Positions 13,672-34,208 of a stretch of DNA of 35,084 nucleotides are shown here, piece by piece. The notes below the pieces were generated by a model. The model had not been told where the DNA came from. It was given only the letters and a program-made list of their open reading frames with translations, and ran no database searches. Source of the stretch: a virus; IMG/VR virus record IMGVR_UViG_3300046665_000761, positions 1 to 35,084 of that record; one strand, written 5' to 3'. A program made the position numbers and the translations under genes. Position 1 is the stretch's first letter. Each line of letters begins with the position of its first letter.

Positions 13672-13672
13672 C

Positions 13673-17154: not shown

Positions 17155-17163
17155 AGGCATCCC

Positions 17164-18282: not shown

Positions 18283-18285
18283 CCC

Positions 18286-18947: not shown

Positions 18948-19261
18948 CTGCTCGAGCAACCCCAAAAGCCACCGGTGCCGAACGCCTGGGCAAAGCTGAA
19001 AGCGATATCGCCGTGCTCAAGCACCAGGTGCGCCAGCTCGAGGATCGCCATGAGGCTGTGCCCGGGCGTGTCACCCGCCTGGAAGGCCAGTTTGAGCACA
19101 TGTCGGGCCAGCTTTCCCAACTGAATGAGGGCCAGCAGAAGCTGACCGTGGTGGTCTCCGATATCGGCAAGAAGATCACCTGGGCGTTGGCGATCGCCAG
19201 CACCTTGTGGGCGATCCTGCAGATGGTCGGGCCCACCCTGTTGCGAGTGGTGTTCCCTTGA
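18944..19261 (+). CDS. Holin-like protein with one C-terminal membrane span
   Basis: This 105-residue protein starts at ATG 18944, four bases inside the TraR-like gene. It has a long coiled-coil-like part (AESDIAVLKHQVRQLEDRHEA, RLEGQFEHMSGQLSQLNEGQQ) followed by one hydrophobic segment (ITWALAIASTLWAILQMVG). This layout resembles XhlA/DUF-type holin-associated proteins. Position directly upstream of the endolysin supports a role in lysis. The N-terminal part is predicted cytoplasmic. Confidence 0.72.
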   Translation: MTARATPKATGAERLGKAESDIAVLKHQVRQLEDRHEAVPGRVTRLEGQFEHMSGQLSQLNEGQQKLTVVVSDIGKKITWALAIASTLWAILQMVGPTLLRVVFP

Positions 19262-19782
19262 ACCTGCGCGGCAAGATCGCCGCCGGCGTCCTGGTGCTCT
19301 GCAGCGGAACGCTTACTGCGTTTCTGGGCAACTGGGAAGGTAACGGCCAAAACACCGTGTACCCCGACAGGCTGGCCCGAGGTCTGCCCAGCGTGTGCAA
19401 GGGCATTACGAAGCACACCAGCCCCTATCCGGTGGTGGTGGGTGATTACTGGTCGGACGCGCGCTGCGCCGAAGTCGAGCACCTGGTGATCAGCAAGGGC
19501 CAGCTCGAACTGGCGGACTGCATCACCAACCAGGCTGTCGGCCAGAACACGTTCGACGCCCTGACCAGCCATGGCCACAACGTTGGCAACCCGAACACCT
19601 GCGCCAGCCGCGCCGTGGGCCTGATCAACGCCGGCCGTATCGCCGAGGGATGCAGGGCCTTGGCCTACGCGCCGGACGGCTCACCCGTCTGGTCCTACGT
19701 AACCCTGTCCAATGGCCGCAAGCAATTCGTCCAGGGCTTGCACAACCGCCGGATCGCCGAAATGGAGCTGTGCCTGAAATGA
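19258..19782 (+). CDS. Phage endolysin (lysozyme, GH24-like) with SAR-like N-terminus
   Basis: This 174-residue protein starts at TTG 19258, overlapping the stop of the holin-like gene; a GTG at 19207 is less likely. The N-terminal segment AAGVLVLCSGTLTAFLG is weakly hydrophobic and rich in glycine, alanine, serine and threonine, as in signal-arrest-release (SAR) domains. It is followed by catalytic E27 in WEG, D37 in YPD and GLPSVCKGIT with T51. The enzyme cleaves peptidoglycan. A cysteine (C15) lies inside the SAR segment and C47 near the active site, as in the P1 Lyz type. Confidence 0.87.
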   Translation: MNLRGKIAAGVLVLCSGTLTAFLGNWEGNGQNTVYPDRLARGLPSVCKGITKHTSPYPVVVGDYWSDARCAEVEHLVISKGQLELADCITNQAVGQNTFDALTSHGHNVGNPNTCASRAVGLINAGRIAEGCRALAYAPDGSPVWSYVTLSNGRKQFVQGLHNRRIAEMELCLK

Positions 19783-20264
19783 CCATTAGCCCGTTACGAC
19801 TTGTCCTGGTGCTCCTGGTTGTCGGCCTTCTCGGTTGGGCCTGGCTCGATCACGTTGCCGACCAGCGCGACACCGCCCAGCGCGAGCTGGCCACCGCCAC
19901 GACCGAAGTCAACGGGCTGCGCGCTACTGCCGTGCTGGCCGGCGAAATGCTCGCCGCCCGCGACCAGATCGACCAACAACGCACCGAGGAACTGAACCAT
20001 GAACGCGCTGAAAACGCGGCTTTGCGCCGTGACGTTGACGCTGGCAATCAGCGGCTGCTCGTCCGTGCCACCTGCAGCCGCCCCGCAATGTCCGCCAGTG
20101 CCGGCGCCGGCCGCGTGGCTGATGCAGCCACCGCCGAACTCGCAGCAGACGCTCGACCAGATTATTTCACCCTCCGCGACGAACTCGCCCTCAGCCGGGA
20201 AATGATCCTGGGCCTGCAGGACCACATCCGCCAGTTGTGCCTGCGCATGCCGGCACAACCCTGA
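19779..20264 (+). CDS. Rz: Rz-like inner-membrane spanin subunit
   Basis: This 161-residue i-spanin starts at ATG 19779, overlapping the endolysin stop. It has a single N-terminal membrane span (LRLVLVLLVVGLLGWAWL) and a long periplasmic coiled-coil region (QRDTAQRELATATTEVNGL). Its C-terminal region would contact the lipoprotein partner Rz1, whose gene is nested inside it at 19999-20205. Rz and Rz1 join the inner and outer membranes and fuse them in the last step of lysis. Confidence 0.85.
   Translation: MTISPLRLVLVLLVVGLLGWAWLDHVADQRDTAQRELATATTEVNGLRATAVLAGEMLAARDQIDQQRTEELNHERAENAALRRDVDAGNQRLLVRATCSRPAMSASAGAGRVADAATAELAADARPDYFTLRDELALSREMILGLQDHIRQLCLRMPAQP
19999..20205 (+). CDS. Rz1: Rz1-like outer-membrane spanin lipoprotein, nested in Rz
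   Basis: This 68-residue protein is read in another frame entirely inside Rz. The N-terminus (MNALKTRLCAVTLTLAISGC) is a lipoprotein signal with a lipobox ending ISGC, followed by a serine and then the proline-rich segment SSVPPAAAPQCPPVPAPAAW, as in Rz1 lipoproteins. The mature protein would be about 49 residues. Overlapping Rz/Rz1 coding is the known arrangement. Confidence 0.88.
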   Translation: MNALKTRLCAVTLTLAISGCSSVPPAAAPQCPPVPAPAAWLMQPPPNSQQTLDQIISPSATNSPSAGK

Positions 20265-20290
20265 ATCTCCTCAAACCAATGGAAAGCACC

Positions 20291-20593
20291 ATGACCACCA
20301 CTACCAACGACGCCGTACGCGAAATCACCCTGGAAGTCAGCGACCAGGAGTTCACTTTCAAGCTGGATCCCCAGGTCGTGACGAAGTACTTCAACTCGAC
20401 CACCCAGGCCAACAAGGTCGCCCCGGCCAACAACCTGTTGATCAACACCGTGCTGCAGGACCAGCGCGCCGCACTGAAACCGTTCCTGGTTAACCCGGTG
20501 ACCGTGATGGAGCTGGCCGGCGCGCTGCTGGAGGAATACGCGCCAAGCCTTGATGTGATCGTAAAAAAGTCCTCGAGCACGCTGACCGCCTGA
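20291..20593 (+). CDS. E: Tail assembly chaperone, gpE-like short product
   Basis: This 100-residue protein lies between lysis genes and the tape measure, as P2 E does. ATG 20291 has GGAAAG five bases upstream; an ATG at 20279 is in frame but lacks one. It has strand segments (REITLEVSDQEFTFKLDP) and helices (VTVMELAGALLEEYAPSLDVIV). The end is reached after the slip sequence A AAA AAG, so a longer form is expected by -1 frameshifting (see the next entry). It would bind the tape measure until assembly. Confidence 0.82.
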   Translation: MTTTTNDAVREITLEVSDQEFTFKLDPQVVTKYFNSTTQANKVAPANNLLINTVLQDQRAALKPFLVNPVTVMELAGALLEEYAPSLDVIVKKSSSTLTA

Positions 20594-20757
20594 CCGAAGA
20601 CAGCTTGGGCCAGTTGGTGGCACTGACCACCCGCTGGCTCCCCGGTACCGAACTCACCATTGAAGCAATGGGCACAGCCAAGTGGCTGGAGGACGAGCAC
20701 TGGCGCCGCATGGAAATCGCCGTCGCCAACGGCATCGCTTACGCACTGAACGGATAA
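20291..20757 (+). CDS. gpE-E' frameshift product of the tail chaperone
   Basis: This is the predicted 155-residue fusion made by a -1 shift at 20563-20569. The first 93 codons match the short protein up to the two lysines. Then the frame starting at 20569 stays open for 62 codons to TAA at 20755-20757, seven bases before the tape measure. The shifted part (VLEHADRLTEDSLGQLVALT, ending AVANGIAYALNG) reads as a normal soluble helical protein and has no ribosome binding site of its own. The E/E' frameshift is conserved in P2, lambda (G/GT) and others. Confidence 0.78.
20563..20569 (+). promoter_or_regulatory. Programmed -1 frameshift slip site
   Basis: The heptamer A AAA AAG is in the reading phase needed for tandem lysyl-tRNA slippage (GTA AAA AAG in the zero frame). 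The zero frame ends 24 bases later at TGA, whereas the -1 frame stays open for 62 codons. A GGTGG/CCACC hairpin with outer CCAG/CTGG pairs lies at 20610-20637, further than the usual spacing, so its role as a stimulator is unsure. Confidence 0.75.
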
Positions 20758-20763
20758 CCCTCA

Positions 20764-22794
20764 ATGGCCGATCGCTCCGCCCGCCTGGCTTTCATTCTCA
20801 GCCTGACCGATAAGGTCAGCGCGCCGTTGGGCAAGGTGAAAACCACCTTCTCCGACTTGGCTGCTGCAGGTGAAGCCAACATCAAGCAGATGGGCCTCGG
20901 CCTGGGCGGCATGATCGGTGCGGCGAAGGGCATCACCGAGTCCCTGGAACCGGCGCTTGAGATGAACCGAGCGTTGGGACAGGTGCGATCCCTGGACGTC
21001 GCCGGGGACGCCCTGGACGCGCTGAACAAGAAGGCTCTGGCTTTCTCTGTCCAGTACGCCACCAGCGCGTCCGAGTTTGTGGAGTCGGCCTACAGCATTT
21101 CCGGGGCCATCAAGGGCCTGGCCGGCGACCAGTTGGCCACCTTCACCAACACGTCCAACCTGCTGGCCAAGGCCACCAAATCCGACGCCGAGACCATGGG
21201 GCAGTACGTCGGCACGATGTACAACATCTTCAAGGCCGGCGCCGACGCCATGGGTAAGGACAAATGGGTCGAGCAACTGGGCGGCCAGACGGCAATGGTG
21301 GTGAAGCTGTTCCGCACCGATGGCGCGCAGCTCAAGGACGCATTTAAGGAGGTCGGCGCCATCGCGACCTCCTCCGGCATGAGCATTGCGGAGCAGTTCG
21401 CGGTGATCGGCACGCTCAGCAGCACCATGGAAGGCGGCGACGCCGGCGGCCGATTGAAGGCCTTCTTTGAGAACGCGGCCAACGGCGCCAAGACCCTGGG
21501 CGTCAAGCTGACCGACGCCAAGGGCAATATGCTCCCGATAATGGACGTGCTGGCCAAGCTGCAGGGCAAGCTGGGCGACCTCACCACCGCATCGGCCAAC
21601 GCCAAACTGTTGGCCGCATTCGGCGGCGAAGGCGCCCAGGTGATCGGTGCCCTGGCCAAGGACACCGACCGACTGAAAAACGGTATCGCCGAGTTGGGCA
21701 AAGTCCGCGGACTCGAGTCGGCCGAGAAGATGGCCCAGGCCATGGTCGATCCGTGGCAGCAGTTCGGCGCCGCCGTGCAGGCCCTGCGCATTGCCTTCGG
21801 CCAGGCGCTGATCCCCATGCTCACGCCGTTGATGGAAAAGCTGGTGGCTATCGCGTCGACGTTGACCCGTTGGACCCAAATGTTTCCCAACATCACCCGT
21901 GTAATCGGCATCACCACGTTGGTGGTGTTCGGGCTGATCGCGGCCATGTCGGCCATGACCCTGGTCGTGGGCATGTCAAAAATGGTCTGGCTGTCGATGG
22001 TGACGATCTGGAAGGTGCTGACCTGGACCGGTTTCCGCTCGATCGCCATGTTCCTCTACCACACGGTCATGATCTCGGCCTTCGTGGTCGGCATGGTGGC
22101 CATGTACACCTGGATGGGCCTGGTCCGGGGCGCCATGCTGCTGTGGCAAGGCGCTATCTGGCTGGTGAACGCAGCCATGTACGCCAACCCGGTCGGGCTG
22201 ATCATTGCCGGCGTCGTCGCCGCGATCGCGGTCATCGCCGCCGCCGTCTACTACTGGGACGACTGGACCAGCGCCCTGATGGATACGGCCGCATTCCAGT
22301 GGGTGAGCGCCAAGCTGCAGGCGCTGTCGGACTGGTTCGGCTCTATCGGCGGCTGGACCGGCCTGGCCAGCGCTGCCTGGGACGGCATCGTCAACATCTT
22401 CAAGAGCGCGATCAGCAGTCTGATCGACATGTTGAACAAAATCCCAGGCGTGCAGATCGACGCATCGTTTGGTGACATGCCCAAGGCGCCGGAGCTGCCC
22501 GGCATCTCCGCGCCCCTGGTCGCCGGGCCGCAAGTCCCCCAGTTGGTCAGCGTGCCATCCCTGGGCGAGCAGGCCGACCAGACCCGCGAACGTATCACTG
22601 CCAACACCGCCAGCATTTCGCCGCTTCGTCCCAACGCCGTGCCGGCGGGCGGCCTGCTGCGCTCGATTCAGAACACCACCAACAACACCCAGACGCAACA
22701 AGGCATCCATGTGGAAAACCTGACGATCAAGAACGACAAGCCGATGACCCCGCTTGAGCTGGAAAACATGGTCAGCATGGCGGTGCCGGGATGA
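20764..22794 (+). CDS. T: Tail tape measure protein, P2 gpT-like
   Basis: This 676-residue protein fills the tail tube and sets tail length. It has the phage tail tape-measure core near residues 55-310 (ALEMNRALGQVRSLDV, SASEFVESAYSISGAIKGL, AMVVKLFRTDGAQLKDAFKEVG), four or so hydrophobic segments around residues 380-500 (ITTLVVFGLIAAMSAMTLVV, VGLIIAGVVAAIAVIAAAV), and a hydrophilic end. It is shorter than P2 T (815), which would mean a shorter tail. It follows the chaperone by seven bases and overlaps the DUF2590 gene by four. Confidence 0.93.
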   Translation: MADRSARLAFILSLTDKVSAPLGKVKTTFSDLAAAGEANIKQMGLGLGGMIGAAKGITESLEPALEMNRALGQVRSLDVAGDALDALNKKALAFSVQYATSASEFVESAYSISGAIKGLAGDQLATFTNTSNLLAKATKSDAETMGQYVGTMYNIFKAGADAMGKDKWVEQLGGQTAMVVKLFRTDGAQLKDAFKEVGAIATSSGMSIAEQFAVIGTLSSTMEGGDAGGRLKAFFENAANGAKTLGVKLTDAKGNMLPIMDVLAKLQGKLGDLTTASANAKLLAAFGGEGAQVIGALAKDTDRLKNGIAELGKVRGLESAEKMAQAMVDPWQQFGAAVQALRIAFGQALIPMLTPLMEKLVAIASTLTRWTQMFPNITRVIGITTLVVFGLIAAMSAMTLVVGMSKMVWLSMVTIWKVLTWTGFRSIAMFLYHTVMISAFVVGMVAMYTWMGLVRGAMLLWQGAIWLVNAAMYANPVGLIIAGVVAAIAVIAAAVYYWDDWTSALMDTAAFQWVSAKLQALSDWFGSIGGWTGLASAAWDGIVNIFKSAISSLIDMLNKIPGVQIDASFGDMPKAPELPGISAPLVAGPQVPQLVSVPSLGEQADQTRERITANTASISPLRPNAVPAGGLLRSIQNTTNNTQTQQGIHVENLTIKNDKPMTPLELENMVSMAVPG

Positions 22795-23108
22795 GTGAAT
22801 ACCTTGACCTGCTGATCGTCGACAACGACCTGGTGCTGGACCTCGGCCGACAGCCGGAATTAGTAGTCGATAGGGCCTGTATCGCCCAGGACATCGGCCA
22901 CATGATCCGCGACAGCGGCCTGCTGGTCTCCCTGGTCGCCGAGCGCAGCAACCTGATCAAGCGCGACTACCGCCAGCAACTTGAGCTGCTGGTGGAGACC
23001 GACGTGCGCCTGGTACCGGGCACCGCCCGGGTTAAAGACCTGGGCAACGGCCAGTACCTGATCACCGCCAAAACCCTGCAGTTCGGCGACGTGGAGGTGA
23101 TCCTGTGA
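22791..23108 (+). CDS. DUF2590 family tail protein
   Basis: This 105-residue protein reads like the DUF2590 family found behind the tape measure in some P2-like phages of Vibrio and Pseudomonas: MSEYLDLLIVDNDLVLDLG, then a QPELVVDRACIAQDIGHMIR, GLLVSLVAERS and a LELLVETDVRLVPGT. By position and acidic beta-rich start it may be the equivalent of gp25/gpW, a baseplate wedge part. The start is ATGA-coupled to the tape measure, and its stop overlaps the baseplate J start. Confidence 0.78.
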   Translation: MSEYLDLLIVDNDLVLDLGRQPELVVDRACIAQDIGHMIRDSGLLVSLVAERSNLIKRDYRQQLELLVETDVRLVPGTARVKDLGNGQYLITAKTLQFGDVEVIL

Positions 23109-24280
23109 GCGATATCGATTTCAAACAGGCCCTGGCCGACTCCGGGATCCCGACCACCGACGCCGCGCTGCGTGCTGCCTGGGAAGCGGAAGTGACCGCC
23201 CAGGGCGCCACGGTGGCCAACACATCGTCCTATTCGCCGTTTTGGCGTGTGGTCACGGCCCTGGTCACCAAACCGGTGCTGTGGATCCTGACCTTTTTCA
23301 GCGACACAGTGCTGCCCAACTTTTTCGTCAAAACCGCCGGTAAACAGTGGCTCGATACCCTGGCCTGGGCCGTGAACATTGCCCGCAAGGGCGAAAGCAA
23401 GGCGATCGGCACTGTGCTGTTCACCCGTTCCGGATCCTCGGGCGTGCTGCAGCTGCCCGCCGGTACCGTGGTGCAGTCAACACCCATCAACGGCAACGTG
23501 TACCAGCTGCTGACCAGCGAAACCGCGCAGTTCGCTGACGGACAGACCACGGTCCTGGTGCAGGTGATCGCAGCCCTGCCCGGCAGTGGCCACAACCTGG
23601 CCCCGGGTTATTACGGCGTGCTGCCGACGCCGATTGCTGGCGTCATCGCTGTCACCAACCCGGAAGGCTGGTTGACCACACCAGGCGCGGACGACGAGCC
23701 CGACGACGAACTGCGCCTGCGCGTGCGCAACCAGTTCAGCGCAGTGAATCAGTGGCACACCGACGCCGTGTACAGGGCGCTGATCTCCGCGTTCCAGGGC
23801 GTGCAGCCCAACGGCGTGTATTTCGAGCATGGGGCCCCACGTGGTCCCGGTACCGCCAATGCCTATGTGCTGTTTGAGGCCGATGTGCCGGCGCAATCGT
23901 ACCTGGTGCAGATCAACAGCAAGATCATGGACGAAGGCAACCATGGCCACGGCGACGATCTGCTGGTGATGGTGATCCCGGAGACGCAGAACGATATCGC
24001 CATGGCGCTGTGGCCGAAATCAACCCTGACAGCGGCCGAGCGCGACACCTTGAAGGCCAATGTCGAGCTGTTCATTCGGGCCGCGTTCCGCGAGAGCACC
24101 GACAGCGACTATCAGCCGACCCTGACCTACCCGCAATCGCGTTTCTCGTTCTCCCGCTTGGGTGAGGAACTGCACCAGCAGTTCGCCGGCATCGACTCGT
24201 TGCGCTTCACCAACAGCGACATCGTGTCCGAGCTGACCATTCCACGCATTCACACGCTGCAGGTGACCTTCGGTGATTAA
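23105..24280 (+). CDS. J: Baseplate wedge protein, gpJ-like
   Basis: This 391-residue protein is a baseplate J-like component. It has the family layout: N-terminal helices (FWRVVTALVTKPVLWILTFF), a strand-rich middle (GTVLFTRSGSSGVLQLPAGT, VQVIAALPGSGHNLAPGYYG), DDEPDDELRLRVRNQFS, and a C-terminal end (SRFSFSRLGEELHQQFAGID). The central PAGTVVQS segment and the GxxxNL sequence are characteristic. GTG start at 23105 overlaps the upstream stop; the stop overlaps gene I by eight bases. Confidence 0.92.
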   Translation: MSDIDFKQALADSGIPTTDAALRAAWEAEVTAQGATVANTSSYSPFWRVVTALVTKPVLWILTFFSDTVLPNFFVKTAGKQWLDTLAWAVNIARKGESKAIGTVLFTRSGSSGVLQLPAGTVVQSTPINGNVYQLLTSETAQFADGQTTVLVQVIAALPGSGHNLAPGYYGVLPTPIAGVIAVTNPEGWLTTPGADDEPDDELRLRVRNQFSAVNQWHTDAVYRALISAFQGVQPNGVYFEHGAPRGPGTANAYVLFEADVPAQSYLVQINSKIMDEGNHGHGDDLLVMVIPETQNDIAMALWPKSTLTAAERDTLKANVELFIRAAFRESTDSDYQPTLTYPQSRFSFSRLGEELHQQFAGIDSLRFTNSDIVSELTIPRIHTLQVTFGD

Positions 24281-24797
24281 GCTCGAACTACCTTTTTGGC
24301 TCGATGCCGGTGAGCTGGCCAAGCTCAAGGCCAGCGCCCAGGCCTGGTGGGAAAACGTCGAGGGCTGGCTGCAGTGGCCGCTCCTGCAGCTGGATCCGGA
24401 GACCTGCCACCTGACCGTGCTGGACCTGATGGCCTGGCAGCGCGATATCACCCGATTCAGTGGCGAACCCGAAAGCCTGTACCGCCTGCGCGTGAAGTAC
24501 GCCTTCGTCAACGCGGTGGACGCCGGCAGCACTGCAGGCCTTAAACGCATTCTGGTGCGCCTGGGCGTCGGCTACATCGAGATCGAGGAGCGCATGCCGG
24601 ATCGGGACTGGGACGTGATCCTGCTGCGCCTCTCTGACTCGCAGCTGTCGCAAAACCCCGAGCTGCTGCGAATCATCGTCCAGCAGTACGGCCGCACCTG
24701 CCGGCGCTATGACTTCGTGACCATCACCCGCGTGTCCATGCATGTGGCCATTGCCGACTTTAACGACGATCAGCAAACGCTGATCGCCACCCTGTAG
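24273..24797 (+). CDS. I: Tail protein I-like baseplate protein
   Basis: This 174-residue protein follows J with an eight-base overlap and a GTG start, the normal J-I order. It has a LLQLDPETCHLTVLDLMAWQRDI, then RFSGEPESLYRLRVKYAFVNAVDAG, features typical of gpI-type proteins. gpI links the baseplate and tail fibre. It ends 10 bases before the fibre gene. Confidence 0.82.
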   Translation: MIKLELPFWLDAGELAKLKASAQAWWENVEGWLQWPLLQLDPETCHLTVLDLMAWQRDITRFSGEPESLYRLRVKYAFVNAVDAGSTAGLKRILVRLGVGYIEIEERMPDRDWDVILLRLSDSQLSQNPELLRIIVQQYGRTCRRYDFVTITRVSMHVAIADFNDDQQTLIATL

Positions 24798-24807
24798 GAG
24801 CCAACCC

Positions 24808-25731
24808 ATGGCTGCCAGTATCACCTTTGCCGGCGAATCTCTGATTGCACAGAAGCAAGCCGCCAACCTGCCGTTGAACATCACCCATTTCATCTTTGCC
24901 AACGTGCCCGGGCTGGACACGGCCGGCGCGGTCGATCGGGCGGCCGCGAAGCCACCTGCAGGCCAGATCGTCTACAGCTCTGCGATTCCGTCCTGGGCGG
25001 CGGGCTACGTTAATCCCAACCAGGTGGTCTACAGCGCCCAAGTGGGCAGCGATGTCGGCGACTGGGACTACAACTGGATCGGCCTGGTGTCCGACGGCGG
25101 TGTGCTGTTCGCAGTGTCGTATGTGCCGGTGCAGCAGAAGCGCCGCAACATCCCGCCGCTGCAGACGGGCAACAACATTACACGCAACTTCCTGGTGGCC
25201 TTCGACGGGGCCCAGGCGCTGACCGGCCTGACGGTCGACGCCAGCACTTGGCAGCACGATTTCACGGTGCGCCTGGTTGGCATCGATCAGCGCGAGCGCC
25301 TGAGCAATCGCGATATCTACGGCCGGGCCGCGTTCTTCGATACCGCCTTGCTCCTGGAGAAGATCGCCGGCGCTTATCAGGTCGCCCCGGGTATTGCCTA
25401 TGGCGAAGGCATCCGGATTGAAAACGCCTCACATGTGATCGTCGCGCCGCCGTCTTTCCCGACCACGGCCTATTTGGATTGCGCCCTGGAGCGGCAGCTT
25501 AACGACGTGGTGGCCACCTGGAAGATCGCTTTCGGTACCGGCCTGGCGGACTACCTGGACAGCGTGGCCACCCAGCACTACGTGATGCCGATCGCCCACT
25601 TGCCCAACGCAAACACCATTTTAGATCTGCGCCCTGTTGTGAAGCTGGGCACGAACGGTAGCGGCCTGGCCGAACAGATCCAGGCGGCAACCCCGAAACG
25701 CTCCCACCTCTACTACTTCGCTCAATTTTAA
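24808..25731 (+). CDS. Tail fibre N-terminal domain protein (DUF3751-like)
   Basis: This 307-residue protein opens with the phage tail-collar/fibre N-terminal pattern: the first residues (ITFAGESLIAQKQA), the LNITHFIFANVPGLD part, then GDWDYNWIGLVSDGGVLFAVSYVP. This domain attaches fibres to the baseplate. The strong AGGAG lies before the ATG at 24808. The protein lacks a long repeat shaft or a receptor-binding tip; those may be supplied by the next two genes. It is the first gene of a module whose base composition changes compared with the baseplate genes. Confidence 0.85.
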   Translation: MAASITFAGESLIAQKQAANLPLNITHFIFANVPGLDTAGAVDRAAAKPPAGQIVYSSAIPSWAAGYVNPNQVVYSAQVGSDVGDWDYNWIGLVSDGGVLFAVSYVPVQQKRRNIPPLQTGNNITRNFLVAFDGAQALTGLTVDASTWQHDFTVRLVGIDQRERLSNRDIYGRAAFFDTALLLEKIAGAYQVAPGIAYGEGIRIENASHVIVAPPSFPTTAYLDCALERQLNDVVATWKIAFGTGLADYLDSVATQHYVMPIAHLPNANTILDLRPVVKLGTNGSGLAEQIQAATPKRSHLYYFAQF

Positions 25732-25741
25732 AGGATCAGTC

Positions 25742-26044
25742 ATGCCCGCATTCTTTGGGTCCGCGCTGCTTGTCGCTAATACCACCACATTGATTTACGA
25801 ACACACCGGTACCACGGCGCTCACGGTGAATATCCGTATGGCCAACCAGAACAACGCCGACGTGAATTACTGGGTCTGGATGGGACCAACCGCCATTCCC
25901 GAAAAGTGCATCACGCCTGGCGTGCCCGTTGACGGCAATGCTCCTTGGGAGGACGTCGGCATGCGTATGGATCCTGGCGAAAAGATTTGGGCCATGGCTA
26001 CTAAAGGGAATGTATCTGTGCGTGTATTTGGAGCGGAGGATTAA
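25742..26044 (+). CDS. Small beta-rich tail-fibre-region protein
   Basis: This 100-residue protein of unknown function has AAGGA before its ATG. It has alternating strand motifs (TTLIYEHTGTTALTVNIRMA, VNYWVWMGPTAIPEKC, EKIWAMATKGNVSVRVFG), consistent with a small beta sandwich. It lies between the fibre N-terminal gene and the propeller gene, two bases before the latter. It could be a fibre adaptor or decoration protein; this is inferred from position and the strand pattern. Confidence 0.7.
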   Translation: MPAFFGSALLVANTTTLIYEHTGTTALTVNIRMANQNNADVNYWVWMGPTAIPEKCITPGVPVDGNAPWEDVGMRMDPGEKIWAMATKGNVSVRVFGAED

Positions 26045-26046
26045 CT

Positions 26047-27171
26047 ATGGGCTTTTTATCAACTAGCTCGTCCTCGAGCAGCGCCGGCGGGAATGTTCCG
26101 CTTGGTGGATATGCTGATGTATTCGCAAGCGGCGATGCATATAAGGCAGTCGGATCGATGATTCGGCGTTCTCAGTACCCAAAAATGTCAGCGGCATTCC
26201 CGCGACAATCTGCCTATTCGGCGGCGTCCTCCACCGCTGTACAGTCCGGCTACTTCACTGCGATCGGCTACGGTAACGGTCTGTTTGTTGCGATGGGTGG
26301 TGTCAATGGCGCAGAACAGAGCACCTGCCTCACTACTCCGGATGGGGTTGTGTGGAACGTCCGGCAGATGCCAGCAAGCCTCGCGTGGAATGGTGTTGCT
26401 TACGGCGCAGGTAAGTGGGTAGCAGTAGCCACGGCGCCGGGCAATACGGCCAACACGATTTGCGCTACGTCGATCGATGGAGTCACCTGGACCGCCAACG
26501 CCAACATGCCAGCCGGGCAATGGCGAGCCGTTGTATGGAATCCCACCCTCAATCTATTTGTCGCCATCTGTGGCGGGACCGTGGCCTACCAGATGGCTGC
26601 GACATCGCCTGACGGTGTGGTCTGGACCGTGAGAGCTCTTCCTTCTTCGGGCACCTGGGCGGCGTTAGCTGTAGGGGCCCAGGGCGTTGTCGTTGCTACC
26701 TCACTTGACGGAAGAGTCGCCCGCAGCGTCGACGGCATCACCTGGACGGTGGTTAACGCTCCGGCGGGAATTACGAGTCTGGCCTCTGTAACTTGGGGCA
26801 AAGGTCTCTTTGTGTCCTGGAACTCTCAGGCCAATCAGGTGATGTCTTCGGCTGACGGTATTACATGGACGGTGAAGTCGATCGTTCATAACGGGGCATC
26901 GGGAGGGAAGGTTGTATTTGCAGAGGGCCTGTTCGTGGTCGCCTGCCTGAATGCTCCCTACGCCTTTACGTCGAACGACGGCATTAATTGGTTTGTCCGG
27001 TCTTCGGCTTTAGCCCTCGCTGTCGGCGGAATCGCTTACGGCGCTGGGGTTGTTGTTTATGGCAGCTCAACCAGTTCTGCTCTGTTCGGCTTGATCTACG
27101 CCGAAAACGATACGGATAGCGATTACATGTTCATCTCCGGCACCGCTGGCAAATTTGTGAGGGTTAAATAG
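26047..27171 (+). CDS. Tail-tip protein with six Asp-box-like repeats
   Basis: This 374-residue protein has an S/G-rich start (STSSSSSSAGGNVPLGG), a hinge, and then six repeats of a [S/T]-x-D-G-[VI]-x-W motif: TTPDGVVW, TSIDGVTW, TSPDGVVW, RSVDGITW, SSADGITW and TSNDGINW. These are Asp-box-like blade turns, as in sialidase/BNR beta-propellers. This fits a six- to seven-bladed propeller. The position between fibre and fibre-assembly genes suggests it is the receptor-binding tip. No sialidase catalytic set was seen, so binding rather than cleavage is favoured. Base composition is lower in GC than in the flanking baseplate genes. Confidence 0.78.
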   Translation: MGFLSTSSSSSSAGGNVPLGGYADVFASGDAYKAVGSMIRRSQYPKMSAAFPRQSAYSAASSTAVQSGYFTAIGYGNGLFVAMGGVNGAEQSTCLTTPDGVVWNVRQMPASLAWNGVAYGAGKWVAVATAPGNTANTICATSIDGVTWTANANMPAGQWRAVVWNPTLNLFVAICGGTVAYQMAATSPDGVVWTVRALPSSGTWAALAVGAQGVVVATSLDGRVARSVDGITWTVVNAPAGITSLASVTWGKGLFVSWNSQANQVMSSADGITWTVKSIVHNGASGGKVVFAEGLFVVACLNAPYAFTSNDGINWFVRSSALALAVGGIAYGAGVVVYGSSTSSALFGLIYAENDTDSDYMFISGTAGKFVRVK

Positions 27172-27570
27172 ATGGCCGTTCATTTTATCTATAACTCACA
27201 AGGCTATTTGACTGGCGTTTATGAGGGCGACGGTGTGCCCGAGAACTCCACTACTCAGCAGCCGATTTACACGATCGGGTTAACGCCACAGAGGGTTGAT
27301 GGCGTCTGGATTGATCAGGCCGCGATGCCGATCCTCCGGCCCAGTGACTTTTTCATGTTGTTCCTGGCTGCTGAGGAAGTCGCAATCAGAAAGCTGATTG
27401 CTGATGATCCTGACAGCGAGCTGGCTATCTGGTGGGCTCGATTGAACAGCGATCTCAAGGAGATAAACCTTGGTCTGAAATCTGTCCAGGATGGCCTGAC
27501 TAATCTAGTTGCCCAGGGCGTGCTGACCAAGGATCGAATGGACGAGATTCTGACGGGGCGAGCGCAATGA
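27172..27570 (+). CDS. Tail fibre assembly-like protein
   Basis: This 132-residue protein begins directly after the stop of the propeller gene. The first half is strand-rich (VHFIYNSQGYLTGVYEGDGV), and the second half is helical (FFMLFLAAEEVAIRKLIAD, then LKEINLGLKSVQDGLTNL). Such a layout resembles tail fibre assembly/chaperone proteins encoded behind fibre genes. It may help fold or attach the propeller protein. The stop overlaps the next gene by four bases (ATGA). Confidence 0.65.
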   Translation: MAVHFIYNSQGYLTGVYEGDGVPENSTTQQPIYTIGLTPQRVDGVWIDQAAMPILRPSDFFMLFLAAEEVAIRKLIADDPDSELAIWWARLNSDLKEINLGLKSVQDGLTNLVAQGVLTKDRMDEILTGRAQ

Positions 27571-28508
27571 TTCCGCTCAACTGGATGCCCGTCGCCATGC
27601 AGTGGCCCGAGGAGGCCACGGCATGGATGAGCAAGCTGGACGAGGCCAAGGACATGGCGGCGGCCGACCTACAGAGCACGGCCGATCGCCTGAACGGCAT
27701 TGCCGATCTGGTCACCACCGACTTGAGCCTGATCGGCGATATCGCAAAGGGCGCCGTGACGATCGGCCGCGAAGCCCTGGACGGCCAATTTGGCGAGATC
27801 CCGCGCTGTATCACCGTGACACCGTTCCAGTCCGGGGTTGGCGAGAGCAATGGTTATCAGTGCTCGCTGTCTGCCCCGGGCGTAGTACAGCGCTTGGCCG
27901 ACAAGCTGCAGGACAGCTCAGATCCGAACCGCCCGGACGGCGACGACCAGCACGCGGTCGTTGTCCTGTTCCTGGGCACGCAGTACGACGGCATGTCGAG
28001 TCTGTTGGGCAAGTTCAATGCCCTGATGCCGATCGGGGATCTGCAGCGCGCAGAGCGCCGGGCACAGAACCTGGTGCAACTCGAAACCGAGAAGTGGCAG
28101 ATCCCGGCGGCTGGTGATGAGCCGCGATGGTTCACTGCGCCGATGGAGCGCTGCACGGTGCTGCGCGAGGCCAGCCAGGCGTTCAACACCCAGTTGGCCA
28201 ACCTGGAAGCCTACGCCGCCAACAGCTCACCGCTGAGCGACCTGGCCGAGCTGGCCCAGCGCAAGGCTGACCAGGTGCTCGAGCAGTCCGATCGACTCGC
28301 GGCGCTGCGCGACGTGCTCAACAGCGGCACCGACAACGCCGGCATGCAAGCCCGCATGATCGGACCAGGCGACACGGCCGAGCTGCGCAAACAACTGCTT
28401 GAGGAGGACGACAGCACCCCCGGGCACGAATGGGTCATGTCCGCCGGCGTCATGTTCGTGGGATCCCTCAAAGGGCTGAGCTTTGTAAAGGAGATGATGG
28501 GCCTATGA
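27567..28508 (+). CDS. Hypothetical baseplate-region protein, helical
   Basis: This 313-residue protein has a long helical start (AAADLQSTADRLNGIADLVT), a globular part (IPRCITVTPFQSGVGESNGY, VVVLFLGTQYDGMSSLLGKFN) and a second helical region (AQNLVQLETEK). It has the SPLSDLAELAQRKADQVLEQ stretch near the C-terminus. I know of no function. It is the first gene of a four-gene overlapping block (27567-30692) that ends in a spike-like protein, so a structural or assembly role in the baseplate centre is likely. Confidence 0.72.
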   Translation: MIPLNWMPVAMQWPEEATAWMSKLDEAKDMAAADLQSTADRLNGIADLVTTDLSLIGDIAKGAVTIGREALDGQFGEIPRCITVTPFQSGVGESNGYQCSLSAPGVVQRLADKLQDSSDPNRPDGDDQHAVVVLFLGTQYDGMSSLLGKFNALMPIGDLQRAERRAQNLVQLETEKWQIPAAGDEPRWFTAPMERCTVLREASQAFNTQLANLEAYAANSSPLSDLAELAQRKADQVLEQSDRLAALRDVLNSGTDNAGMQARMIGPGDTAELRKQLLEEDDSTPGHEWVMSAGVMFVGSLKGLSFVKEMMGL

Positions 28509-29038
28509 CGTTGCTCCTGGACGGGTCACAGATCCGTGGCCATAGCCTCAAGGTCACCGGCAATCTGCGCATTGAAAGCGATGACATGTCAGGCCAGACC
28601 AGTGCCACCGACTCGGCGGACAAGGGCTTTAAGCCCAAGACGCTAACCATCGCGATGAAGATCAAATACAAGGACTCGGCGGACCTGGCCGCCCTGATGA
28701 GCATGGCCGAGGCGACGGAAAGCGGTGGCCAGCGCAAAACCTACCGCGTGGTCAATGACACGGCCGAGGCCTTCGGTGTGCGCCAGGCGCAGTTCAGCGA
28801 GAGCGTCAGCGCCCGGGAAGACGACACCCTGGCGCAATGGATCATCCAGTTCACCCTGGCTGAAAAGCTGTCCAACCCCGAGAAAACCGAGCAGCGCCGG
28901 GAGGCTAACGGCACCAACAGCCAGGCCGCCCCGGGCGACAGCGTGGCCGGCAGCGGTACCGGCGGCGAACCGGAGCTGACCGGCTTCGAAAACGTGCTCA
29001 AGAAGGTGGACGGCTGGCTGGGCGGTGACAAGAAATGA
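28505..29038 (+). CDS. Baseplate complex protein, small
   Basis: This 177-residue protein starts at ATG 28505, overlapping the upstream stop. It begins MTLLLDGSQIRGHSLKVTGN, then has LRIESDDMSGQTSATDSADKG and FKPKTLTIAMKIKYKD, followed by a second beta-rich domain (LAQWIIQFTLAEKLS) and an acidic glycine-rich tail. It resembles the small tube-like domain proteins that precede hub genes and may act like a tube initiator or LysM-type adaptor between baseplate and tube. Function is inferred from place and strand pattern. Confidence 0.7.
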   Translation: MTLLLDGSQIRGHSLKVTGNLRIESDDMSGQTSATDSADKGFKPKTLTIAMKIKYKDSADLAALMSMAEATESGGQRKTYRVVNDTAEAFGVRQAQFSESVSAREDDTLAQWIIQFTLAEKLSNPEKTEQRREANGTNSQAAPGDSVAGSGTGGEPELTGFENVLKKVDGWLGGDKK

Positions 29039-29733
29039 GCATGAAGCTGCACCAGGTACTGGCCATTGCCGGCACCGTCTACCCGATGGTCAAAGACGAT
29101 GTGCGCCTCGATCTAAAAAGCCCAGGACGGGCTATTTTCACGATCAAGGCCGAGTCCGCGGTAAAAGGCCTGGTCACCCTGGACATTGGCTACAACGACA
29201 GCACGCTGCAGCGACATTTCCTGGGCTACGTCGAGCGTTGCACCACCACCAACCGCATGGAACAGGTGGTCGCCTGCCGCGAGCTGGCTGGGATCCTGGC
29301 CAACCCGCTTCCGATGAACCTGCGTCACGTCGACATGCGCCAGGTCCTGGTCGAGGTCAGCAATCAGACCGGTTTGTCGTTCAAGGTGCCTGACCAGGAC
29401 TACACCCGGGTAAAGGCGCCGTTCTTTTACAGCCTGGCGTCTGGATACCTGGCCCTAGACAGCCTGGCCAAGGTCTACGGCATTCCCGACTTTATCTGGC
29501 AGCAGCAGGGCAATGGCGAAGTGTTCGCCGGCAGTTGGACGGACAGCTTCTTTGGCGCCCGATCCGCGCTGCAGCTGCCCCTGGAACTGTTCAACGACTA
29601 CCAGGGCAACCAGAGCGCCGTTATTGCCGCGCTTCCCGGGTTGCGCCCTGGTGCATCGATCAACAATGGCGAGCGGGTCACCAGCGTGGCCCTCGCCGGC
29701 ACACAGATGGCCATCAAATGGACGACGCAGTAA
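29035..29733 (+). CDS. Baseplate hub-like protein
   Basis: This 232-residue protein overlaps the upstream gene (ATGA) and the downstream spike gene by 16 bases. It has beta-rich start (DVRLDLKSPGRAIFTIKAES, VTLDIGYNDSTLQRHFLGYVE), a CRELAGILANPLPMNLRHVD and VLVEVSNQTGLSFKVPD. This is reminiscent of gpD/hub-type proteins that connect the tube to the spike, though shorter than P2 D (387). The second half (SLASGYLALDSLAKVYGI) is another small domain. Confidence 0.7.
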   Translation: MSMKLHQVLAIAGTVYPMVKDDVRLDLKSPGRAIFTIKAESAVKGLVTLDIGYNDSTLQRHFLGYVERCTTTNRMEQVVACRELAGILANPLPMNLRHVDMRQVLVEVSNQTGLSFKVPDQDYTRVKAPFFYSLASGYLALDSLAKVYGIPDFIWQQQGNGEVFAGSWTDSFFGARSALQLPLELFNDYQGNQSAVIAALPGLRPGASINNGERVTSVALAGTQMAIKWTTQ

Positions 29734-30692
29734 AACGCAGCGTAGAGCGGCAATTCCCGGAACTGTCCGGCCAATACCACTTGCCCAGGTTCGCCCAGGT
29801 GGTCGCCGTCGCGGATCCGCCTGCAGACGCGGGCATGTGTGACGACTTCCGGCCACGTTACGCGGTGGACCTGCAGGTGCTAACCCCGGACGGTATGCCC
29901 GACTCAGGTATGCCGCTGCTGCCCGGTGTGCCGTTGCCGGTACCGACTGGTGGAGATGAAATGGGCATGTATGCCTTCCCGCATGAGGGAACCCGGGTTG
30001 TGGTCTGTTTTGCTTACGGCCTGCCACATTGCCCCTACATCCAAACGATCCTGCCGCACGGCCTGAGCCTGCCCAAGGTGCCGAAAGGGGATCATGTCTG
30101 GCAGCACAGCGATCTGGCCCAGCAGCGCGTCGACGCTGCCGGCAACTGGACCCGGACCACTGATGGCAAGATCAGTGACCAGTCCCTGGAACGCCAGGTC
30201 GATAGCGGCACCAATCAGGAGAAGTACCAGAGCCACGACCAGGACGTGGCCACGCACTCGACGGAGCAGGTGGGGGGCATCAAACGTATCGACGCCCTGG
30301 GCGCGCTCAAGCTGAATTCCGCCGGCACTGCCACACTCGCCGCCCTGGACGACATGCACCAGGCCACCGGCCGCGACCTGAACCTTGTGGTGGGCAAGAA
30401 GCACAACGCGGCCGTGGGTGGCGACATGTCCGAGCGTATCCAGGGCCTACGCGAGAGCATCACCCAGGAAAGCCAGCGACTGCAGGCGCCGAAAAGCTGG
30501 GTAGGGTCGGGAAACGTCAATATCTTCAAGGTGTTGTGCGATACCCTGGATTTGCTCCAGGAGATGAACACGCAGATCGCGGCGCACGGTCACCCGCAAC
30601 TGGGGGCGCCTCCGAACAATGCTGCGGCATTTGCCGCAGATGCGGGCAAGGCTGCATTGATGTCTGCGCTGCTTGGATCGATCACACTGTAA
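29718..30692 (+). CDS. Baseplate spike-like protein, gpV/Gp5-like
   Basis: The start is ATG 29718 (MDDAVKRSVERQFPELSG), overlapping the hub gene by 16 bases; 324 residues. The N-terminal part looks like an OB-fold domain of baseplate spikes (FAQVVAVADPPADAG, YAVDLQVLTPDGMP, GVPLPVPTGGDEMGMYAFP, GTRVVVCFAYG). The rest has repeating strands (KISDQSLERQVDSG, HSTEQVGG, RIDALGALKLNSAG), a typical trimeric beta-helix, then a C-terminal helix (NIFKVLCDTLDLLQEMNTQI). It would form the membrane-piercing tip. Its place after the fibre genes, not before J, is unlike P2. Confidence 0.8.
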   Translation: MDDAVKRSVERQFPELSGQYHLPRFAQVVAVADPPADAGMCDDFRPRYAVDLQVLTPDGMPDSGMPLLPGVPLPVPTGGDEMGMYAFPHEGTRVVVCFAYGLPHCPYIQTILPHGLSLPKVPKGDHVWQHSDLAQQRVDAAGNWTRTTDGKISDQSLERQVDSGTNQEKYQSHDQDVATHSTEQVGGIKRIDALGALKLNSAGTATLAALDDMHQATGRDLNLVVGKKHNAAVGGDMSERIQGLRESITQESQRLQAPKSWVGSGNVNIFKVLCDTLDLLQEMNTQIAAHGHPQLGAPPNNAAAFAADAGKAALMSALLGSITL

Positions 30693-30804
30693 GCATCAGC
30701 GCTTTATCGGAGGGCTTAAAACCTATTACTCTGTAACAGCTTCCCCGGTCACCCAAGCTCCCCTGGAAAAAGCGACCGATTTGATAACCGAGCAGGATCG
30801 TCAC

Positions 30805-31710
30805 ATGGATGATGAGATTACGATATTAGAAATGCCTAATAAGATGACCTTCGCTTGGTGGAACACAAGCTTGTCGCCTAGGGCCAAAAGCCGTTCAAAA
30901 GTTGAAGTTCAGCAATTTGCTCTGAGCGTGATCGAACATATGATCTCCTATCAAGGTGCAGACTTTATTGCGCTGGGTGAAGTGTCTGAGCTTGATATGA
31001 CTTACTTTACGCAAAATAACTCATTCTTGAATTTTAAATATGTGTCTGCGGTCATTGATAGCGGCACAACAAAAGTTGATCTAGGCTACGTATATAATAC
31101 TGGATTTATATCTATAATTGATGACATCCCCATCATCACACCTATTGCAAAAAAAAAGCACAAGGTGGCTCAGCGGGTTAGGCTTGAGATTTTAGGATAC
31201 GACTCTATTCTTTCGGTGTTTATTTCTCACTGGCCTAGCCGCATGTACGTTGATAGCAATCATCCGAAGCGACATGCAATTAGCCTTTCTTTGCGCTTAA
31301 AAGTAGATCAGGCTTTAGATTTAGACGAGCGCGAGCTTGTCATACTTTTGGGTGACTATAATGATGAGCCTTATAATGTTTCACTTAGTGAACATTTGAG
31401 GGCGTCGAGGGATCGAAGCCTTGTACGGAAAAACGCCACTCTGCTCTACAATCCTTTTTGGAGCTTCTTGGGCGATTTGTTATCAGAGCCAACCGAATTA
31501 GGCAGCTATTATTATCCGAAAGGGGAAACGACTAGATGGTTTGCGTTTGATCAAATGATCTTTTCACACGGATTTATTCTCGGCAAACACTGGGTGTTAT
31601 CTGATACGTCCGTTTATATCGCACGAATACCCGATCTTTTAGAGCGAGTCCTAAGTGCTAAACATAAATTCGATCATCTGCCAATATTTGGCACAATTGA
31701 AAAGGTTTGA
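30805..31710 (+). CDS. Endonuclease/exonuclease/phosphatase (EEP) family protein, cargo
   Basis: This 301-residue protein starts at ATG 30805, with AGGA eight bases upstream. It has the EEP fold signatures in order: N20 in FAWWNTS, E59 in IALGEVSE, H142 in SHWPSR, D184/N186 in LLGDYNDEP, a second aspartate in FDQMIFS, and D290/H291 in FDHLPIFG at the C-terminus. These are the metal, phosphate-contacting and general base positions of DNase I-like enzymes, so a phosphodiesterase or phosphatase acting on nucleic acid, nucleotide or lipid phosphate is expected. No signal peptide or export domain is seen, so it would act in the cytoplasm. It is clearly AT-rich against the late genes. It forms a pair with the next gene three bases on. 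Confidence 0.88.
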   Translation: MDDEITILEMPNKMTFAWWNTSLSPRAKSRSKVEVQQFALSVIEHMISYQGADFIALGEVSELDMTYFTQNNSFLNFKYVSAVIDSGTTKVDLGYVYNTGFISIIDDIPIITPIAKKKHKVAQRVRLEILGYDSILSVFISHWPSRMYVDSNHPKRHAISLSLRLKVDQALDLDERELVILLGDYNDEPYNVSLSEHLRASRDRSLVRKNATLLYNPFWSFLGDLLSEPTELGSYYYPKGETTRWFAFDQMIFSHGFILGKHWVLSDTSVYIARIPDLLERVLSAKHKFDHLPIFGTIEKV

Positions 31711-31713
31711 ACT

Positions 31714-32154
31714 ATGGCTGACTTTAAGAAATCGTTCAATAAAGGTCTCGACGCAGCTGAGCATTCTAAGAAAAACAAAATGGAAATTCATGCGGTTTTC
31801 GAGGATCTTAAAAACCAGATTCTCGAAGCTACAGAAGGCAGGGTTGTTATCTTCTTGGATGAAGGTTTTAAGGCTTCCGGAAATATTTTTGGTGGAGGCG
31901 CTAATAATTTGGCGAAGGCTCTATCTGCCGGGATTAGAAAAGCCTATTCAGTTTGTTGCTCGCTTGCGGATGACAAAAGCAGTAAAGAAACACTTGCGGA
32001 ATATGTTATGGGAGTTGCGGGCTATCCTTTTGAACTTCATTTTAATAATCAGGAGTTTGTGTGCCGAGACCGTCAAGCTCTTGAGGTGGCTCTAGAGACA
32101 CTGCTAAGCAATCCTGTTGTAGGTGAAAAAATCCAAAGGGTCATGGCTCTTTAA
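31714..32154 (+). CDS. Unknown protein paired with the EEP enzyme, 146 residues
   Basis: This protein begins three bases after the EEP stop and is equally AT-rich, so both came as one cassette. The N-terminal helix (ADFKKSFNKGLDAAEHSKKN) is basic and amphipathic, followed by MEIHAVFEDLKNQILEATEG, a strand VVIFLDE, a glycine-rich loop (GNIFGGGANNLAKAL), a further alpha/beta part (YVMGVAGYPFELHFNN), and a helix-rich end (LEVALETLLSNPVVGEKI). The E26-like acid positions and FLDEG are not a catalytic set that I know. It may be a sensor, inhibitor or regulator of the nuclease. No known family. Confidence 0.75.
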   Translation: MADFKKSFNKGLDAAEHSKKNKMEIHAVFEDLKNQILEATEGRVVIFLDEGFKASGNIFGGGANNLAKALSAGIRKAYSVCCSLADDKSSKETLAEYVMGVAGYPFELHFNNQEFVCRDRQALEVALETLLSNPVVGEKIQRVMAL

Positions 32155-32186
32155 TTATATATTTGATCCGGACGCTGGTTAGTGCG

Positions 32187-32206
32187 GCAGGGGCACCAAC
32201 CCCTGC
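32187..32206. other. 7-bp hairpin at the end of the cargo cassette
   Basis: GCAGGGG pairs with CCCCTGC around a six-base loop (CACCAA), between the convergent cargo pair and the small SOS-operon gene. Neither side has a strong T-run. It may end transcription in both directions weakly. Confidence 0.4.
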
Positions 32207-32231
32207 TATCTACAGCGACCCTATTTTAAAG

Positions 32232-32519
32232 TTAAAGGCCCCTGCTTCGATCTGCCATCCAAGAAGCTTTTGAGCGCTCAGAACATCCATGTGTTGGTAG
32301 ATCCGTCTCCCAATCGATCAACTCCTGGAACGCCCATTCCAAGGCAGCATCGGCCATCTCCAGCATGTCGCACAGCAGGTCGCGGTTGACGGTCCCGGCG
32401 CTGACCATAGCGTGTGCCTCTTGGATCAGCAGCTTATGTCTTGCGCCTGGGGCGGTGAGCAGCGGTGGCTGGTCATACAGCACTGCCATCCATACGGCCC
32501 AACCTGGATCGTCAGTCAT
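32232..32519 (-). CDS. Small protein coupled to umuC
   Basis: This 95-residue protein starts at 32519 in an ATGA overlap with the umuC stop. It begins [20 protein letters not shown] and has two helical stretches ([38 protein letters not shown]). It has no known function; from memory similar small genes follow umuC in other Pseudomonas. As the last gene of the LexA-controlled operon it would be made with UmuDC during DNA damage. Confidence 0.72.
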
Positions 32520-33790
32520 TTTACGGTCCATAGCTGATCTATGCGGGTGGTGTAGCTCTGACTCATCAATGAACGCTGCATGCCCCAGTCCGGCGCCGCT
32601 GGCACGCCTCCAGTGCGCAGCGTGCCACGTCCCCATCTATTATTGATCTGATCCAGTACGCCCATAACCTGGTCCGAGGTCGCAGGCTGATGTTCAGCGA
32701 ACAGATCGTCTGTGAACTCACCAGGTTGGCGCAGATCGATCAACAGCACCTCTGCTTTGCTGTACCGAAAGCCTGGCCGGAAAATCCTGTCTACGGCCGC
32801 CACGGCGAACTTTGTCATTAGCCGCACATCGTTCGTTGGGTAGGGCAGCTCCACTAGGGCGCCCTGGGCGTACTTCGCTTCTTCCGGGTTGAACATCCCT
32901 GTCCGAATACTGACCCTCACTTTTTTGCAGAGTGAGCCCTGGGCGCGCAGCTTTTCCGATGCTCGCATCATGTAGGTGGCTACCGCTTCCTTGATCGGCT
33001 CGATCTCTGTCAGCCGCTTACCGAACATGCGACTGCAGCATATTTCTTGTTTCGGTGGGTCCGGGTCATCAAGTTCCAGGCATGGCGTGCCGGCCAGCTC
33101 CCGGGCGGTCTTCTCGACAACGATGCTGAATTTCTGTCTCAACATAGACGGATCGGCGTTGGCCAGGTCCATGGCAGTCTTGATTTTCATTCCCTCCAGG
33201 TGCGCGTTCAGACGTCGCCCAATGCCCCACACCTCGCTCACTTCGGTATTGCGCAATACCCAAGCCCGTTTGAACTCGTCGCATATGTCCACAACGCCAC
33301 CAGTTTGCGCCTGCAGACGCTTTGCGGTGTGGTTCGCCAACTTGGCCAGGGTTTTCGTCGGCGCTATCCCAACACCCACTGGGATGCCCGTCCGTTTGAA
33401 GATGGTGCTGCGGATCTGGCGCCCGAACTGGGTAAGGTCGCCCGGAATGCCCGAGAGGTCGGCGAATGATTCGTCGATCGAGTAGACCTCTGCGGCCGGC
33501 ACCATTGATTCAATGATATTCATGACGCGCTCGCTCATGTCGCCATAGAGCGCATAGTTGCTGCTGAACGGCACGATACCCAAACGCCTCAGATCGTCCT
33601 TTATCTGAAAGTACGGTGCGCCCATCTTCACATAGGGCTTTGCATCGTAGCTGCGGGCAATAACGCAGCCGTCGTTGTTGCTCAGCACCACAATTGGGGT
33701 CTTAGCAAGGTCTGGCCGGAACACACGCTCACAGCTCGCATAGAAGCTATTGCAGTCGATCAGTGCGAAAACCTGATCAGACTTTGTCAT
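32516..33790 (-). CDS. umuC: Translesion DNA polymerase V subunit UmuC (RulB-like)
   Basis: This 424-residue Y-family polymerase copies over damaged bases, with low fidelity, as UmuD'2C. The first acidic motif is D12 in [17 protein letters not shown]. The second is D106/E107 in [32 protein letters not shown] and the helix-hairpin-helix-like [17 protein letters not shown] follow; a C-terminal little-finger region is complete. It has full length (422 in E. coli), overlaps umuD by 14 bases and is not interrupted, in contrast with rulB copies that carry element insertions in some pseudomonads. Confidence 0.95.
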
Positions 33791-34208
33791 GGGCGCGCAC
33801 GCTGTATCGAACTACACCCCACACCAGAAGATCATCGCCTTCCATAATGTGGATCGGCGGAAACCCTGGATTCTCAGACTGCAGCACCACAAGCCCATCA
33901 CGACGGTGCAGCCGCTTGCACATTGGCTCGCAGTTGATCGCGGCAATCACGATATCGCCATGCTCAGCTTCCCGGCCACGGTCAACGATCACAAGGTCAC
34001 CCGCGAATATCCCGGCGCCCTGCATGCTGTTGCCCTCGATCTTCACAAGGTAGACATGGGGCGCGCGGATCTCCAACAGCTCATCGAGCGAGATTTTCTT
34101 TTCCAGGTGATCGGCCGCTGGTGAAGGGAAGCCGGCAGGCACTTGGAACGAGTAGAGCGGGAGTTCAGCGCCCCCGGCCGTCAACGGGCCAAGAATGGTA
34201 ATGCTCAT
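33777..34208 (-). CDS. umuD: UmuD-type S24 peptidase subunit (RulA-like)
   Basis: This 143-residue protein is the SOS-activated subunit of polymerase V. Self-cleavage, stimulated by RecA filaments, is expected at A25-G26 (VPAGFPSP). The serine is S61 in GNSM and the lysine K98 in MCKRL, matching S60/K97 of E. coli UmuD. The sequence [20 protein letters not shown] is typical. It overlaps umuC by 14 bases and has a LexA box at 34231-34246, about 25 bases upstream of the start. Confidence 0.94.

Follow-up and report, generated by a model that had tools for sequence, protein, structure and literature searches.

What do two low-GC genes, lying next to each other behind the late operon of a P2-like prophage, do for the phage or the cell that carries them? 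The question is raised by the viral record IMGVR_UViG_3300046665_000761, whose 35,084 bases were analysed as a whole and are referred to here as the window. A first-pass annotation had proposed that the two genes form a two-component defence or superinfection-exclusion system, composed of an endonuclease/exonuclease/phosphatase (EEP) effector and a small sensor or inhibitor. Our comparative analysis supports the two-component defence reading, with the defence function itself remaining unproven, and identifies the EEP gene and its partner as a mobile two-gene module that had not previously been named.

A low-GC gene pair in a variable cargo slot

The window phage is P2/HP1-like, in agreement with its earlier assignment to the P2 type. 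Among named phages it stands closest to UFJF_PfPro, a Peduoviridae phage of Pseudomonas fluorescens; the element is a Pseudomonas prophage. The following features of the window are referred to throughout:

29535-30692, + strand, last late (baseplate) gene, left neighbour of the slot (phrog_4011, E 4e-133; match from about 29718)
30656-32267, no strand, cargo slot, the block not common to the window and its close relative L149 (blastn)
30805-31710, + strand, gene for an EEP-fold hydrolase of 301 residues, the proposed effector (PF19580, conserved catalytic residues, AlphaFold/Foldseek)
31714-32154, + strand, partner gene, 146 residues, three bases after the EEP gene (profile link to phrog_24185 and phrog_10179, unknown function)
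32516-33790, - strand, umuC-like gene, right neighbour of the slot (PF00817, 2.5e-34)
33777-34208, - strand, umuD-like gene, right neighbour of the slot (PF00717, 9.9e-30)

The first-pass annotation had placed both open reading frames at these positions and had described them as AT-rich genes that interrupt a high-GC prophage after its last structural gene. All of this holds: the G+C content is 41.2% in the EEP gene and 42.2% in the partner gene against 62.0% for window positions 13000-30692, and the preceding gene is the last baseplate gene. Among the 60-base lines for which G/C counts had been quoted, those for 31741-31800 (24) and 29221-29280 (40) are correct, whereas 31081-31140 contains 20 and not 21. 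A scan of the window for promoters and terminators returned about as many hits as were obtained in shuffled sequences, with none at the edges of the cassette.

The extent of the slot follows from a blastn comparison with L149, in which the flanks are about 83% and 89% identical and the block between them (30656-32267) is without similarity. We further fetched nine relatives of the last baseplate protein and examined the eight whose sequence continues past the baseplate gene. None of these eight close relatives, with baseplate proteins 68-95% identical, carries the EEP-partner pair downstream of this gene. Instead, the same slot contains other cargo, mostly of low G+C content, such as a PemK-like gene (recognised by eye) in L157 and unrelated antisense genes in other relatives. 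UFJF_PfPro carries a glycosyltransferase gene at this site. Thus, the cargo at this position varies, and this type of phage can do without the pair. In L152, the slot (L152:5027-8079) contains a DUF2971-like gene and an OLD-like ATPase gene with a toprim-like neighbour, all assigned by eye without a profile.

The umuDC-like error-prone polymerase genes that flank the slot (window 32516-34208) also occur near the pair in an unrelated Acinetobacter phage (L002). In L066, two HP1-like baseplate gene copies lie about 5.9 kb apart, perhaps as parts of tandem or remnant prophages.

Since the pair comes behind the late operon and shares its strand, it could in principle serve the phage life cycle in DNA processing, lysis or virion structure, and an essential structural or lysis role had been named as a finding that would refute the defence reading. 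Such a role does not apply, because the nearest relatives lack the pair. A life-cycle function of any kind appears highly improbable, given this absence from eight closely related phages and the presence of the pair in a filamentous phage, in plasmids and in chromosomes.

An EEP-fold enzyme with conserved catalytic residues

The EEP gene starts with an ATG at 30805, preceded by AGGA nine bases upstream; in its homologues, the start is often close to the ATG at 30844. Its product matches the Exo_endo_phos_3 family (PF19580) with 68.1 bits, against a curated cut-off of 27 (E 8.8e-19). When its AlphaFold model (pLDDT 93) was compared with the PDB using Foldseek, the best solved folds were those of Nocturnin (E 8e-14; one entry with NADPH), TDP2 and CNOT6L. 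Each of the catalytic residues proposed earlier (N20, E59, H142, D184, N186, D290 and H291) is found in the window protein and is retained by 98-99 of the 99 non-redundant members, and N216, D249 and Q250 show a conservation equal to theirs. Judged by these residues, the active site is intact. From fold and residues together, we predict that the protein is a Mg2+-dependent phosphoester hydrolase, hydrolysis itself being inferred. Nucleases, phosphatases and cofactor hydrolases all share the EEP fold, and neither fold nor residues can decide between a nucleic acid and a cofactor as substrate. R146 occupies the position that we take to correspond to an arginine with which Nocturnin contacts its substrate; no more than 75 of the 99 members retain it.

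The subfamily is marked as a separate clade by the motifs W-N-T-x-L-S-P, S-H-W-P-S-R, G-D-Y-N-D-E-P and Y-N-P-F-W, and some of its members are already held in phrog_24714, a family of unknown function. CdtB of the cytolethal distending toxin is an EEP enzyme found in some P2-like phages. We rejected this identity for the window protein: its N-terminus (MDDEITILEMPNK) shows no signal peptide by eye, the partner comes from a different family, and neither CdtA nor CdtC is among the families listed for the neighbours of the pair.

A partner protein without a known family

The partner had been described as matching no known family, and our searches bear this out. Neither protein of the pair matches any NCBIfam family or, at E up to 1, PADLOC-DB 2.0.0; the partner, moreover, has no match in Pfam, and a fold search against the PDB yielded none (best E 0.6). 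Its PDB sequence matches are confined to designed repeat proteins and coiled coils with weak E-values, which we took as chance. The AlphaFold model (pLDDT 87) comprises a long N-terminal helix (residues 4-39), five strands and two C-terminal helices, without a recognisable DNA-binding domain. Members of the family have 130-180 residues, more where they are tailed, and share the motif GYPC...C(E/R)D...LE.aL..LLs.p.vG. In one Pseudomonas-related group (L026, L027, L030, L031, L051, L096 and L113), the partner ends in a lysine/alanine-rich C-terminal tail, which is mostly long. Similarly rich tails of AlgP-like proteins bind DNA, an analogy that hints at contact of the tailed partners with nucleic acid.

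Strict pairing and joint inheritance

Searches with the EEP protein gathered 48 viral loci (found with a three-sequence alignment query), three phage records, nine plasmid loci in full and 80 genome loci. Single-protein scans of viral contigs with either window protein gave no match, and tblastn with the partner against phages and plasmids returned Acinetobacter pairs only, or nothing. Using a partner profile, we found the partner beside the EEP gene at all 48 viral loci, at 63 of the 80 genome loci and at all phage and plasmid loci read. The 17 partner-less genome loci contain remote EEPs, with the exception of L125, and the 13 that were placed in a tree form a clade of their own with 100/100 support. 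L125 was discounted as a partner-less member, its contig ending 185 bases after the EEP gene. The partner is thus found beside every assessable EEP of the subfamily.

The existence of more than 120 homologous pairs rules out that the window genes are a chance pair of reading frames. The partner lies directly downstream of the EEP gene at 122 loci, of which 117 show a spacing of -20 to +14 bp, with overlapping or abutting genes at 74 of these; at the remaining five, one gene is damaged. The order is swapped in L098, where the partner gene comes first, and no EEP-partner fusion occurs among the fetched loci.

Repeated co-occurrence with EEP genes in unrelated prophages or defence islands, which the first-pass annotation had expected of a genuine system, was found without exception in any genome sampled. 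In a draw of 398 Pseudomonadaceae genomes, the partner is present in five and the EEP subfamily in the identical five; in a draw of 398 Pseudomonadota genomes, both are present in the identical three, and eleven remote EEPs occur without a partner (G001 was picked beforehand, and two genomes are common to both draws). A partner found mainly without EEP genes would have spoken against a system; this is not the case in the bacterial genomes sampled, and solo homologues are known from lytic Acinetobacter phages (see below).

The distance matrices of the two proteins correlate with r = 0.835, a value reached in 0 of 2000 permutations, none of which exceeded 0.145. This points to long joint inheritance and not to contact, since the shared ancestry of a linked pair yields the same correlation. 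At 98 of 99 loci, the G+C content of the pair is below that of its flanks. Decay is seen in both genes: a broken EEP gene accompanies an intact partner in L003, L050, L052 and L089, and an intact EEP gene accompanies a frameshifted partner in L055 and L123. With decay occurring in both directions, no asymmetry of the poison-antidote kind is seen. An 8.4-kb Klebsiella plasmid (L053) appears to be a fusion of two related ColRNAI plasmids, in which one copy of the pair is intact and the other has decayed.

Carriers and genomic neighbourhood

The pair is carried by P2-like, HP1-like and siphovirus-type (pro)phages, a Vibrio filamentous phage, plasmids and chromosomal islands, the last of these in six phyla. 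Klebsiella, E. coli and Edwardsiella plasmids of 3.1-3.5 kb contain little besides replication genes and the pair, and the complete pair is present in A. baumannii prophages and other A. baumannii records. No copy was detected in 5,426 E. coli genomes with two DNA queries. The pair seems rare or absent in E. coli, which may be the reason why E. coli-based screens missed it.

At three loci (L016, L019 and L046), the pair lies between the replication gene gpA (PF05840) and the portal gene gpQ (PF04860), and it adjoins gpQ at several others; further sites are found after an integrase gene and between conserved Proteus genes. According to the study that describes it, the gpA-gpQ interval of E. coli P2-like phages is a validated hotspot for anti-phage systems (PMC9122126). 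Neighbours of the pair that match defence models include DitA (8e-68) and Aga_Nuclease (3e-81), and Abi genes stand beside it at some loci. The pair fulfils the general expectations for a two-gene defence system, namely an obligate pair, mobility and residence in hotspots with defence genes, but known defence neighbours occur at a minority of loci, and no shuffled control or enrichment statistic stands behind the neighbour evidence. Prophage cargo slots hold non-defence genes too.

PADLOC matches to DinG (L070) and to a TnpB/Cas12f-like protein (L112) probably represent housekeeping or transposon genes and were excluded from the defence count. A CBASS cyclase gene (E 9e-158) and a 2TM-sized effector gene lie directly upstream of the pair at L021:3894-7268, placing two systems in one phage cassette; a SLATT-type effector was reported among the scanned neighbours of this locus. 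A UG17-like reverse transcriptase gene, split across two reading frames, is located just upstream of the pair at L104:5155-7103.

The wandering location of the pair and the lack of a recurrent metabolic neighbour also argue against a metabolic operon, the other finding that would have refuted the defence reading, for which there was no direct test. In the Photobacterium plasmid pdp3, hcp and vgrG lie just downstream of the pair, as might be expected if the pair were a nuclease effector, either secreted or delivered by a T6SS, and the protein that confers immunity to it. We rejected this scarcely credible reading: the linkage is seen at one of more than 120 loci and at no other fetched locus, the 301 EEP residues include no signal peptide or delivery domain, and the pair sits in phage cargo slots.

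Solo partner homologues in Acinetobacter phages

A fold search with the partner against viral models returned, as its best match, a 115-residue protein of vB_AbaM-IME-AB2 (E 6e-3, probability 1.00), which the partner profile confirmed (E 5e-15). With 22-27% identity, this homologue is only distantly related to the partner, whose variable middle part is absent from it. It occurs in about 56-58 Acinetobacter phage records; it is missing in near relatives such as AB1, whose terminase is 97% identical. The accessory gene is found at L158:18290-18637 (IME-AB2) and in L159-L164, all Obolenskvirus phages, which we take to be lytic. No EEP gene was found in the examined 43,000 bases of IME-AB2 or alongside the solo homologues.

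That lytic phages have a solo partner but no EEP gene suggests, as far as distant sequence similarity allows, a counter-defence mimic. T4 Dmd is an antitoxin mimic directed against RnlA/LsoA (PMC10286901), and by analogy the small component alone in a lytic phage is reminiscent of such mimics. The solo homologue is our best clue that the partner would restrain the EEP enzyme and that the enzyme would harm lytic phages, an inference drawn from distant homology. The counter-defence prediction that it provides makes the function directly testable.

An antitoxin mimic would also fit an addiction module, in which the EEP protein is the toxin, the partner is the antitoxin, and the pair merely stabilises its carrier, phage protection being secondary. 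The 3.1-3.5 kb plasmids and the many overlapping or abutting genes are compatible with this reading, and tiny plasmids carry addiction modules too. We nevertheless regard it as unlikely: the toxin-like gene comes first, an order that most type II pairs do not show, no DNA-binding domain can be recognised in the partner, an intact EEP gene persists beside a frameshifted partner in L055 and L123, and location in a proven defence hotspot points beyond addiction.

Alternatively, host immunity might lose a nucleotide signal or a cofactor to degradation by the EEP protein, allowing carriers of the pair to escape CBASS- or Thoeris-like systems. This would suit a pair carried mainly by phages and plasmids, an enzyme whose closest solved fold, Nocturnin, was solved with NADPH, and the adjoining CBASS operon in L021. 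However, the pair is found among the cargo between A and Q of P2-like phages, at other cargo sites and in chromosomal islands, and lytic phages, which are most in need of counter-defence, were found with the partner only and without the enzyme, leaving this alternative improbable.

Proposed function

We consider it probable that the pair has an anti-phage or anti-element role, whatever the mechanism, although no experiment has addressed it. Somewhat more guardedly, we favour a mobile module that guards the cell and the prophage against phages and other elements, with the EEP protein as effector under the control of the partner. This proposal builds on strict pairing, joint inheritance, an intact active site, mobility, defence-hotspot location and solo homologues in lytic phages, all of which are observed. 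When a phage or another mobile element enters, the module would shield the cell and its resident prophage through the EEP protein, a predicted Mg2+-dependent hydrolase whose target would be nucleic acid or a nucleotide cofactor. The partner would bind the enzyme and keep it inactive, or else provide the trigger, until infection occurs, and the shortened solo partner of lytic phages would probably silence the enzyme. Complex formation, inhibition as opposed to sensing, the trigger, the substrate and the anti-phage outcome are all inferred.

Only tentatively, and with rather more doubt than confidence, do we suggest that the pair represents an undescribed and widely mobile class of immunity, with an EEP effector and a regulator of new fold, countered by a stripped-down copy in Acinetobacter phages. 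In such a class, the effector is possibly a Nocturnin-like cofactor or nucleotide hydrolase rather than a nuclease. If true, prokaryotic immunity would gain both an effector class (EEP) and a regulator fold that are new to it, in a module of about 1.35 kb that is small enough for filamentous phages and 3-kb plasmids.

Comparison with known systems

No EEP-based defence pair was found in the published literature, with supplementary tables and subscription papers outside the scope of the search, and none is named in the main text of the DefensePredictor and E. coli functional screen papers. Sequence families of unknown function already hold some members of the EEP protein (phrog_24714) and of the partner (phrog_24185 and phrog_10179), and nothing that we found links the three as one system.

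The EEP protein shares its fold and catalytic residues with Nocturnin/CCR4-type hydrolases and TDP2, from which it differs as a separate, motif-marked clade with an obligate partner gene. The systems encoded between gpA and gpQ of P2-like phages, such as old, tin and the cassettes of Rousset et al. 2022, resemble the pair in occupying the same slot (three P2-like loci in our set) and in being short, low in GC and variable between relatives; the text of the 2022 study describes no EEP pair (PMC9122126). In comparison with toxin-antitoxin and abortive-infection pairs such as toxIN and RnlAB, the enzyme is of the EEP type (DNase I/Nocturnin/TDP2) and not of the RelE, HEPN or ToxN type, the fold of the partner is unrecognised, the enzyme gene comes first, and no poison-antidote asymmetry is seen. 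Like them, the pair places the gene for a small protein next to that for an enzyme which putatively cuts nucleic acid, and it has a putative mimic of the small component in lytic phages, for which Dmd is the precedent (PMC10286901).
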